A stretch of 15,214 bases of DNA from Syntrophomonadaceae bacterium. Its GTDB lineage: Bacteria > Bacillota_D > Dethiobacteria > DTU022. The notes beneath the pieces were generated by a model that saw only the letters and a program-made list of their open reading frames with translations, was not told the origin of the DNA and did no database searches. Shown piece by piece: positions 38 to 7,166 of the stretch. The stretch spans positions 1-15,214 of the forward strand of contig PXFD01000160.1 in the NCBI GenBank assembly GCA_003564505.1. Reading direction: 5' to 3'. Every line of letters starts with the position of its first letter. Positions within the stretch are counted from its first letter, which is position 1. The position numbers and the translations under genes are program-made.

Positions 38-1444
38 TTAATCTTCTTCGATATGTATTAACTTATTACGCAGGTATTCCCTGTCTTCTTTACCGGATGC
101 AGGTGCAAAATAACGATCAAGTGTAGCACTGACTTTGGGAATGGAGAATACAACAAGGTGATCTTCAGGCAGGAGCACAGTGCCGCCATTAGGGATAATC
201 ACCTCTTCACCACGGACAATTGACCCGATCAGCATTCCCCGGGGGAACTTAGCCTGGGCAATTGTCTTATTTACAACCCTGGCAGACTGCGGAAGGATTA
301 TTTCAACAATCTCAGCCTTTTCATCCTGCAGAATCGATAAGGCAACGATGTCTTCTTTGCGAGTAAACCTCAGGATCTGGGAAGCTGCCAGCAGGCGGGG
401 GTTGATTACACTGTCGATACCCAGGGCCCCGTAAACCGGCACATATTGCGGTTTCATTATCTCGCAGATTATTTTTTTAACTCCAAACTGGCGTGACAGG
501 AGGGCAGCTACAATATTATTGCGATCATCACCAGTAGCAGCAATAACGGCATCGGCCCAGTCTGTGTCTTCTTCTTTAAGCATGGCAATTTCTGTTGCAT
601 CTCCCTGAACTACGAGGGTTTTGTTTAAATCCCTGCAGAGTTCTTCACAGCGTTCTTCATTCTTTTCTATTAACTTAACAGTAAAATCCTGTTTGCTCTT
701 TTCAAGTAAGAGTGCCAGCTGGCGGCCAATCAACCCCCCACCCATAATCGTCACATTATGAACCCTGGTTTTTTTGTGATGTAAGAGAGAGCTGATATCT
801 TTTAGGGCACTCGTTCTGCCTAACATGTATATTTTATTGCCCGGATAAACGATATCGTCTCCACCGGGAACGATGAATTTGCCATCAGGGTCACTTATGC
901 CAACAATTATTGCATCGTGATGAAGGGGCAGCTTTCTCAGGGGAACCCCCGTTATATCAGCTTCGGAACCGACTACAACGCCTAACATCATTACCCGGCC
1001 CCGGTTAAAATATTCTACCTCTGAAGCATCGGGGAAGTGCAGCATTTTTGATATTTCCATTGCGGCGACTCGCTCCGGGTTAATGACAATGTCAATTCCC
1101 AGCTGTTTCGGGGTTAAAACCGATTCATCTTCAGCATAACCGGAGTTTCTAATTCTGCAAACGGTGATCGGAACGTCATACTGCTTGGCCAGCATACAGG
1201 CTATAATATTTACTTCGTCAACCTGGGTGACGGCAATCATCATATCTGCATTTTTTATATTAGCCTTTTCAAGAACCGCTGCGTTGGCACCGTTATCTTC
1301 AATAACCATAACATCGAGTGCTTCCTTAAAACGCCTGGCCTTTACTTCATTTTTTTCTATAACAATAACATCCTGGGCTTTTTCTGAAAGATTTCGGGCC
1401 AGCTCATAGCCGACTCCACCGCCACCGACAATTATAATCTGCAT
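38..1444 (-). CDS. trkA: Trk potassium uptake system NAD-binding regulatory subunit TrkA
   Basis: TrkA is a peripheral cytoplasmic protein that binds nucleotides and gates the membrane K+ channel subunit TrkH/TrkG. The 468 residues fit the family length (about 450-460) and the duplicated layout RCK_N-RCK_C-RCK_N-RCK_C. The first Rossmann motif is GGGGVG at residues 7-12, followed by an acidic residue at the end of beta 2 (VIVIEK). The second Rossmann motif, GGGLIG, lies near residue 235. Each half also has the conserved INPE/INPR-type segment that precedes the C-terminal RCK lobe. The ATG at 1444 is preceded by GAGG at 1459-1456. The gene lies directly behind a cyclic di-GMP-I riboswitch with a terminator, so its transcription is probably controlled by that second messenger. 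The next gene starts about 34 bases after the stop. Confidence 0.96.
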   Translation of the reverse strand: MQIIIVGGGGVGYELARNLSEKAQDVIVIEKNEVKARRFKEALDVMVIEDNGANAAVLEKANIKNADMMIAVTQVDEVNIIACMLAKQYDVPITVCRIRNSGYAEDESVLTPKQLGIDIVINPERVAAMEISKMLHFPDASEVEYFNRGRVMMLGVVVGSEADITGVPLRKLPLHHDAIIVGISDPDGKFIVPGGDDIVYPGNKIYMLGRTSALKDISSLLHHKKTRVHNVTIMGGGLIGRQLALLLEKSKQDFTVKLIEKNEERCEELCRDLNKTLVVQGDATEIAMLKEEDTDWADAVIAATGDDRNNIVAALLSRQFGVKKIICEIMKPQYVPVYGALGIDSVINPRLLAASQILRFTRKEDIVALSILQDEKAEIVEIILPQSARVVNKTIAQAKFPRGMLIGSIVRGEEVIIPNGGTVLLPEDHLVVFSIPKVSATLDRYFAPASGKEDREYLRNKLIHIEED

Positions 1445-1467
1445 TTTGCAAACAACCTCGCTTTCAG

Positions 1468-1497
1468 AAAAAAAAGAGACAGCGGCTACGCTGCCTC
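1468..1497 (-). terminator. Riboswitch-controlled intrinsic terminator before trkA
   Basis: On the minus strand GAGGCAGCG (1497-1489) pairs over nine base pairs, one of them G-U, with CGCTGTCTC (1484-1476) across a four-base loop. Eight T residues follow (1475-1468). It stands between the aptamer and the trkA start, so it is the expression platform rather than the end of a gene. Its 5' arm contains GGCAGC (1495-1490), which is perfectly complementary to GCTGCC (1543-1538) inside the aptamer. That would provide an antiterminator pairing. Confidence 0.9.
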
Positions 1498-1532
1498 ATC
1501 AGGGAGAAAAATTGAAAAACAAATTTATTTCC

Positions 1533-1617
1533 TGACCGGCAGCCCGGCAGTCTCTCCTGCTCAGAGGATCCATGGCTTTGCGCCCCTGCCTTGCAGCAGG
1601 TTTGCCTTGAACGGTCT
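1533..1617 (-). promoter_or_regulatory. Cyclic di-GMP-I (GEMM-I) riboswitch aptamer
   Basis: The transcript carries the GEMM-I hallmarks in order. GGCAAACC (1606-1599) is followed by a six-pair stem CCTGCT/GGCAGG capped by a GCAA (GNRA) tetraloop at 1594-1591. Then come GGGGCGCAAAGCC (1586-1574), a second hairpin closed by TCCT/AGGA, and the 3' conserved block GCCGGGCTGCCG (1548-1537). The closing stem P1 is GACCG (1616-1612) with CGGTC (1538-1534). At the base that separates cyclic di-GMP from cGAMP recognition I read G (second of two G before CAAAC), favouring cyclic di-GMP, though this depends on numbering from memory. The aptamer starts about ten bases after the predicted transcription start. 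It is followed by a terminator and then trkA. Confidence 0.9.
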
Positions 1618-1631
1618 AATAAACTACTCAT

Positions 1632-1660
1632 ATTATATACTATCATTTCTTTGATGACAA
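1632..1660 (-). promoter_or_regulatory. Sigma-A type promoter for the riboswitch-trkA transcript
   Basis: The minus strand has TTGTCA (1660-1655), a 17-base spacer and a perfect TATAAT (1637-1632). Transcription would start near 1625, just ahead of the riboswitch P1 stem at 1616. This supports the aptamer being the 5' end of the trkA mRNA. Confidence 0.8.
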
Positions 1661-6170: not shown

Positions 6171-7166
6171 ATGGCAGTAATGTACTACGACCAGGATGCA
6201 GACTTAAACATCCTGAAAAACAAAAAAATTGCTGTATTAGGTTACGGCAGCCAGGGACATTCCCAGGCCCAGAATCTTAAGGACAGCGGACTTGACGTAA
6301 TTGTCGGGTTGCACGCAGAAAGCAAAAGCAGGGGCCAGGTTAAAAAGGACGGCCTGGAAGTAGCAACTGTAAAAGATGCAGCAAAGGAAGCAGATTTAAT
6401 CCAAATTCTGATCGGTGATAATTACCAGCCTGCTGTTTACAGGGAATCAGTTTTACCCCATCTTACTGAAGGAAAAGCCCTGGTTGTATCACACGGGTTC
6501 AATGTTATTTATAACCAGGTCATCCCTCCGGAAAATGTTGATGTTTTCATGATTGCCCCTAAAAGCCCTGGCCACCTGTTAAGAAGGCTATACAAGGAAG
6601 GCGCCGGCGTGCCTGCCCTAATGGCAGTTCACCAGGATTACACAGGAAAAGCCAAGCAGCTGGCCCTGGCTTATGCAAAAGGGATTGGCTGTACCCGTTC
6701 GGGAGTAATAGAAACAACTTTCCAGGAAGAAACGGAAACGGACTTGTTCGGGGAACAGGTTATTCTCTGCGGGGGAGTCTCCGCACTGGTTAAAGCCAGT
6801 TTTGAAACCCTGGTTGATGCCGGATATCAACCCGAAGTGGCCTATTTTGAATGCCTGCACGAGCTCAAACTGATCGTTGATCTGATCTATGAAGGCGGGC
6901 TGGAAAGGATGCGCTATTCGGTCAGTGATACCGCTGAATACGGCGACCTGACCAGAGGCCCCAGGATTATTGATGACCGGGTCCGCAGCGAGATGAAAGA
7001 TATTTTAGGCGAAATCCAAAACGGTCAATTCGCCCTGGAATGGGTAACAGAAAACCAGGCTAACCAGCCCCAGTTTAAAGCCCTGAGAAAAATCGAAGAG
7101 AAGCACCAGATAGTTGAGGTAGGAAACAAGCTGCGTAAAATGATGAAGTATATAGATCCTTCATAG
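6171..7166 (+). CDS. ilvC: Ketol-acid reductoisomerase with atypical cofactor loop
   Basis: IlvC carries out the Mg2+-dependent alkyl migration and NAD(P)H reduction of 2-acetolactate (or acetohydroxybutyrate), the second common step of valine, leucine and isoleucine synthesis. The 331 residues fit the short class I form. Visible features are the Rossmann motif [10 protein letters not shown] (24-33), catalytic H108 in SHGFN, metal ligands D191 and E195 (DLFGEQ), E227 and E231 (ECLHE), and S252 in SDTAEYGD. Departures from the usual consensus are H48, E50 and R54 in the beta2-alphaB loop (GLHAESKSR against the common GLRxGSxSW), S132 in PKSPGH, and GDNYQ where PDExQ is usual. The loop change may affect NADPH versus NADH preference. 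GGGAGG at 6155-6160 precedes the ATG. It stands alone, without other branched-chain genes in the window. Confidence 0.95.

Follow-up and report, generated by a model that had tools for sequence, protein, structure and literature searches.

The window, by which we mean the whole stretch of 15,214 nt that was analysed, carries on its reverse strand a short regulatory leader followed by trkA. In the direction of transcription, the features are:

1632..1660 (-): sigma-70-type promoter, TTGTCA-17-TATAAT, hexamers read in the sequence
1612..1616 (-): 5' strand of P1, GACCG, whose partner CGGUC lies at 1538-1534; covariation in 30 sequences
1534..1615 (-): c-di-GMP-I-type aptamer, the 5' sensor domain of the RNA; Rfam RF03167 and classical pocket bases
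1531..1543 (-): predicted antiterminator or anti-seed strand (Vienna minimum-energy fold), with predicted pairing of GCUGCC (1543-1538) to GGCAGC (1495-1490) and of UCAGG (1535-1531) to CCUGA (1503-1499)
1510..1530 (-): A/U-rich, unconserved linker; 44% mean pairwise identity
1476..1509 (-): conserved 3' module, comprising the predicted seed UUUCUCCCUGAUGA (1509-1496) and the hairpin GAGGCAGC-loop-GCUGUCUC
1468..1475 (-): eight-T run closing the intrinsic terminator, the expected 3' end of the RNA; read in the sequence
38..1444 (-): trkA, 468 aa, the next gene, reached via read-through; ORF and domains

The first-pass annotation had described a TTGTCA-17-TATAAT promoter, a nine-pair terminator with eight T and a downstream trkA, in the correct order, and all of these are present: the promoter at 1660-1632 (-), the nine pairs at 1497-1476 (-) with the T run behind them, and trkA at 1444-38 (-). 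The trkA product has two TrkA_N and two TrkA_C stretches. The T run ends 23 nt before the trkA ATG, which leaves no room for a separate trkA promoter. At the level of sequence, the aptamer and terminator lie directly 5' of trkA in one transcription unit, and the RNA is noncoding and bounded by its own promoter and intrinsic terminator. The 153-nt RNA has a folding z-score of -2.26 relative to shuffles, and the Rfam scan of the window returned no family at its cut-off beyond the aptamer.

The aptamer had been assigned to GEMM-I. A c-di-GMP-I-type aptamer is indeed found above gathering, but the best Rfam model is RF03167 (c-di-GMP-I-GGC; 61.4 bits, E 1.1e-12, gathering 59) and not RF01051. At the corresponding position of the leader in sister genome G007, RF01051 scored 59.5 bits (locus L008) and RF03167 58.8 bits (L045). 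Eight copies of the leader, the window included, have an intact ligand pocket (see below), and in seven of them RF03167 is the best model and reaches gathering, L045 falling just below. By contrast, RF01051 is the best model for 21 of the 25 other c-di-GMP-I-type matches, which come from 20 of 30 loci fetched in the same genomes. In many of these other aptamers, P3 shows by eye a UCUAAAG..UAUGA-like receptor, which is missing from the sRNA-linked ones; its absence may explain their preference for RF03167 and might also mean weaker binding. The preference would also suit an aptamer that binds c-AMP-GMP or some further ligand of the GGC variant, and no ligand for RF03167 was found stated in the sources searched. 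The pocket speaks against such a ligand. Positions G20/G21/C46/A47/C92, in what we take to be Vc2 numbering with the roles we assume for them, read G, G, C, A, C in 8/8 intact copies. The printed RF03167 consensus has a G at the A47 place, presumably the defining base of this variant, and that G is replaced by A in all eight; nor is there an A at position 20, which we take to mark c-AMP-GMP riboswitches. Another ligand is thus distinctly improbable, and the pocket bases argue for c-di-GMP. Tandem c-di-GMP-I aptamers, spaced within about 200 nt, were seen at four loci (L018, L020, L021 and L023).

A scan with the TrkA of the window as query and one genome per species gave 10 loci, all in MAGs titled Syntrophomonadaceae. 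The closest TrkA (L008) is 96% identical to that of the window, and L008 alone among the 10 has an Rfam c-di-GMP-I match. Seven other orthologues (74-87% identical to the window's) share the leader: the promoter, the P1 strands and TTTTTCTCCCTGATGAGGCAGCGTAGCCGCTGTCTC are kept, the last unchanged, while the interior has diverged. A further trkA copy, L007, lacks this leader. A pattern search found the 31-nt core of the module in 26 of the 71 genomes of the order, as a single copy each and exact in 23, and a looser pattern found the 34-nt module (unpaired UUUCUCCCUGAUGA plus terminator hairpin) once each in 30 of 97 class genomes, compared with 0/97 for a reversed-pattern control. When the window is counted, 24 of the 31 copies are identical over 34 nt, and a promoter-like hexamer pair precedes 28 of them.

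The conservation is concentrated in the module. Across 30 aligned copies (L062, which is without the 5' domain, was left out), mean pairwise identity is 0.455 in the 5' domain, 0.443 in the linker and 0.948 in the module. All eight pairs of the module stem, one of them G-U, are invariant in 30/30 sequences. P1 is paired in 98% of cells of the same 30 sequences, with three of five pairs changed on both sides; covariation as high was reached in 4/500 shuffles, and P1 is kept also where the aptamer core is missing. To judge from these identities, the terminator half is conserved as sequence far beyond a terminator's needs. In L062, where the 5' domain and aptamer are absent, the -10 box lies 20 nt from the module, and the immediate product of this promoter would be the module itself.

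Could the module be a generic terminator of c-di-GMP-I riboswitches? This was ruled out, as it occurs once per genome, against 1 to 10 RF01051 matches in each of G001-G009. A widespread module was rejected as well: among 398 phylum genomes sampled, TCTCCCTGATGAGGCAGC with at most one mismatch occurred in only 6 (reversed control, 2), five from the same order plus G463, where the site (L097) is not followed by a T run. There was no exact CTGATGAGGCAGCGTAGCCGCTG in viral_contigs. When 30 module-negative genomes were searched with relaxed criteria, 15 of them yielded 31 rows, but in no row did the matched string contain the module's stem. The Rfam families that the module weakly resembles are sRNAs ending in a terminator, namely the streptococcal csRNAs (RF02379; 22.6 bits, gathering 57) and PinT (19.0 bits, gathering 60). 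With the csRNAs the module shares a terminator hairpin preceded by unpaired UCUCC, but its score excludes it from the family; for both families the layout is similar and membership is not given. We know of no aptamer in the csRNA family. We take the isolate labels to refer to particular soda lakes, in part as an assumption. Labels and literature (the available portion of PMC6295475, on soda-lake Syntrophomonadaceae) point to an origin in hypersaline soda-lake sediment.

The gene that follows the module varies. It is trkA in 19 of the 31 copies (the window and 18 others), a convergent GH57-type gene in six, a holA-like gene in three and a Na/H-exchanger-like gene in two, while in one (L054) the contig ends after the module. 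In L055, L058, L077, L078, L079 and L080 the closest long ORF runs convergently and resembles a GH57 branching enzyme; in L049 and L053 the antiporter-type (Na/H-exchanger) gene begins about 160 nt downstream; and in L060, L061 and L062 the holA-like gene is next and the locus as fetched shows no trkA. One member per neighbour type was examined with Pfam, which gave GH57 (L055), DNA polymerase III delta (L060), Na_H_Exchanger (L049) and TrkH after trkA (L001), and the other members were assigned by eye. Since the order in L001, L002 and L009 is FAH, leader, trkA, trkH, holA-like, the leader holds its place before holA where trkAH is missing. The module thus behaves as an sRNA gene: its neighbours vary, loci without trkA keep it, and the L062 promoter adjoins it. 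On this evidence, the element in the window is probably an sRNA gene made of a 5' c-di-GMP-I-type aptamer and a 3' conserved seed-plus-terminator module. A ketol-acid reductoisomerase-like gene occupies 6171-7166 of the window and is found near the leader in several relatives, including L001 and L009; in L060 no ORF upstream of the leader exceeds it in length.

We then asked which copies keep the sensor. An Rfam scan of all 31 (E-value limits 1 or 0.5) gave c-di-GMP-I-type scores of 72.1 bits for L058, 70.5 for L055, 69.4 for L080, 68.9 for L077, 64.8 for L079, 61.4 for the window, 60.4 for L078 and 58.8 for L045. L059 scored 24.1 bits, below the cut-off, and the remaining copies had no such match within the E-value limits used. 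The eight highest-scoring copies are also the eight of 31 with an intact pocket, which the other 22 aligned copies lack. All six copies with a convergent neighbour belong to the eight (60.4-72.1 bits); because their next gene is convergent, 6/8 pocket-bearing copies have no co-directional gene to control. The pocket is kept in 6/12 copies without trkA next and has been lost from 17/19 trkA-linked copies, the window and L045 being the two that retain it, so the pairing of aptamer and trkA is not conserved across relatives (2/19). A tree of TrkA groups the window with L045 (100/100) and nests this clade beside pocket-less copies (86/96, branch not starred), which implies several losses of the aptamer or, as the less simple alternative, a regain. 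The sensor has decayed in most relatives, where the sRNA is predicted to be constitutive.

Folding predictions suggest how the sensor and the module could be coupled. In the Vienna fold, GCUGCC..UCAGG on the 3' side of the aptamer pairs with CCUGA..GGCAGC of the module, forming an antiterminator that also buries the seed. The energy of the no-terminator state minus that of the terminator state ranges from -4.0 to 3.9 kcal/mol in the eight intact copies and from 0.2 to 10.0 in the 22 others (rank test p 5e-5, on rows that are not independent), in a comparison that ignores tertiary structure and ligand and uses 5' ends picked by script. L047 is an exception, pocket-less yet bistable, with a gap of 0.2 or -1.2 in two computations. 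The Vienna folds of the terminator state differ from the textbook aptamer fold. Aptamer-bearing copies are thus predicted to be bistable and most aptamer-less ones to be locked in the terminator form, and from the energy gaps by pocket state, sensor loss accompanies loss of the competing fold.

The layout of the window, with promoter, aptamer, terminator and trkA in order, 23 nt to the ATG and a predicted antiterminator, is also what an ordinary c-di-GMP-I OFF switch of trkAH would present, the module being a mere expression platform conserved by descent. Cd1, which precedes C. difficile flgB, operates in this way: in the accessible text of PMC9262584, its aptamer forms together with the terminator and the two compete with an antiterminator, a scheme that the predicted one here matches, and its terminated transcript is of about 160 nt (PMC9262584, PMC3649979). 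Cd1 differs in being a case of classical cis regulation, with no trans module reported in the accessible parts of those two papers. We consider such a switch unlikely, since the module sequence persists though the aptamer has decayed in 17/19 trkA-linked copies, persists at loci that lack trkA or have a convergent gene next, and shows no compensatory change in eight stem pairs over 30 sequences, a kind of change that terminators tolerate.

It follows that the proposed control of trkA by c-di-GMP needs to be recast. Cis control is plausible in this genome, where read-through must feed trkA(H), but it does not appear to be the element's purpose, and the trkA upstream regions of relatives do not bear it out: the pocket is gone from 17 of 19 and 12/31 module loci have no trkA next. 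Because loci without trkA keep the module and trkA-linked ones lost the pocket, a link from c-di-GMP to potassium would hold at most locally, in the window and the sister genome G007. An aptamer, a terminator and a gene in a single genome do not pinpoint the regulated gene. In the portions of the literature that our searches covered, neither this RNA nor c-di-GMP control of trkA is described.

The best reading of the window copy is an aptamer-sRNA fusion that doubles as the trkA leader. We infer its transcription, ligand, switching direction and base-pairing function as follows. Binding of c-di-GMP would fold the aptamer, so that P1 holds the GCUGCC..UCAGG strand and the terminator can form; transcription would then stop and an RNA of roughly 155 nt be released, in which the C-rich, anti-Shine-Dalgarno-like seed UUUCUCCCUGAUGA would be free to pair with mRNAs in trans. 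With no ligand, GCUGCC..UCAGG would pair with CCUGA..GGCAGC, burying the seed and removing the terminator, and RNA polymerase would continue, in the window into trkA-trkH. The sRNA output of the window copy would thus be coupled inversely to trkA.

Candidate targets were sought by complementarity to the seed. In 30 genomes, TCATCAGGGAGAAA matches at 53 non-self sites when up to one mismatch is allowed and its reversed control at 17, an excess that ribosome-binding-site bias alone could produce. The four sites of TCATCAGGGAGGAA all fall at ribosome-binding sites of exported-protein ORFs. The pattern ATCAGGGAGG-N2-11-ATG gave 72 rows in 30 genomes and its reversed control 2, but a permuted control (TACAGGGAGG, TAC) gave 59, with orthologous recurrence there too. 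TC precedes the site in 5/70 cases, a chance level, and all five are in two unrelated exported-protein families that have 11-12 nt perfect complements to the seed at their ribosome-binding sites. The permuted control makes the target evidence weak, and we regard these candidates as leads.

The best candidate is the gene after ftsX, whose product Pfam identifies as an M23 peptidase that has a PcsB coiled coil; its perfect complement to the seed is up to 12 nt long (CTCATCAGGGAG in G035). Its site CAGGGAGG is present in 24/25 placed module-bearing genomes and in G021, and is absent from the module-bearing G026 and G031. Of the close relatives in which no module was detected, eight have the site and three lack it, and one of the 32 remaining genomes has it. 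Among the module-negative relatives, G024, G033 and G034 carry complementary sites of 11-12 nt. The comparison with and without the module (25 vs 6 rows) was not significant (p 0.73-0.89); the site therefore tracks the clade and not demonstrably the sRNA. In eight module-bearing genomes, ATCAGGGAGG lies at the M23/PcsB-type ribosome-binding site (L208, L240, L222, L236, L211, L246, L250 and L258), and in G010 and G019 an ftsX-like coding sequence is seen, by eye, directly 5' of the M23/PcsB-type gene. The second candidate is an exported family with the motif YDKYYDLDGKILLKI and the same ATCAGGGAGG site (L156, L210, L212, L230 and L244), two members of which had no Pfam match when tested. A histidine-kinase gene (Pfam) recurs among the candidates in seven genomes.

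Given the weak target statistics, the module might instead be a real conserved RNA element that binds a protein or another partner while the aptamer still gates it. Its conservation covers paired bases and the G-U pair, exceeding what a base-pairing seed needs, and riboswitch RNAs that sequester a protein are known in Rli55 and EutX (PMC8383071, in the text available). However, the unpaired CUCCC stretch resembles anti-Shine-Dalgarno seeds, and the 11-12 nt perfect complements lie at ribosome-binding sites in two unrelated exported-protein families; we regard a protein partner as quite unlikely. A dedicated, c-di-GMP-gated, trans-acting sRNA, in which the messenger sets both termination and seed exposure, the likely targets are envelope genes (the M23/PcsB gene and an exported protein), and repeated loss of the sensor leaves a constitutive sRNA, is our tentative reading, somewhat short of an even chance as a whole.

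Known systems share parts of this design. According to the accessible text of PMC8383071, the ligand-bound, terminated transcripts of the Listeria S-adenosylmethionine riboswitch RNAs SreA and SreB act in trans as sRNAs, with an antiterminator in the absence of ligand, as in the scheme proposed here; their ligand is another one, and SreA is the leader of a downstream gene. Unlike SreA, the present element lacks a co-directional gene in 6/31 copies, and its sRNA part persists after the sensor is lost. The same text has the B12-riboswitch sRNAs Rli55 and EutX join a riboswitch to a trans-acting noncoding RNA, as we propose, but both sequester the protein EutV (PMC8383071). The merRNA of Bdellovibrio bacteriovorus resembles the RNA here in being noncoding, in carrying a c-di-GMP riboswitch and in having no conserved ORF after it; it differs in being 445 nt long, a proposed ligand reservoir and reported only in the Bdellovibrio lineage, and the available part of PMC3627812 describes no conserved seed-terminator module. 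Rfam gave no SreA or merRNA match for the window RNA or the module. The merRNA precedent, the six copies that face a convergent gene and the antisense-acting c-di-GMP-I riboswitches proposed in PMC9943018 (in its available text) would suit a c-di-GMP reservoir or an RNA antisense to the convergent neighbour, but an invariant 3' module is required by neither, and in most copies the module survives without the pocket, which makes both scarcely credible.

Trans-acting riboswitches are few. If our reading of a gated sRNA is true, nature would here offer an instance of a sensor that was attached to an sRNA and then lost again, and one that ties c-di-GMP directly to sRNA control. A single RNA that exists with the sensor, without it and without the whole domain would provide a comparative system for riboswitch-sRNA origins.

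Two genomes in which the leader is absent, G037 and G038, show another arrangement upstream of trkA. A perfect inverted repeat surrounds AAGGGACGAT / ATCGTCCCTT in L104 and L110 (also with TGAAAGGGAC in L110), possibly another regulatory RNA or attenuator. The trkA relative of L110 (G038:C44) lies in two frames with stops reported, and may be a decaying or mis-assembled copy.
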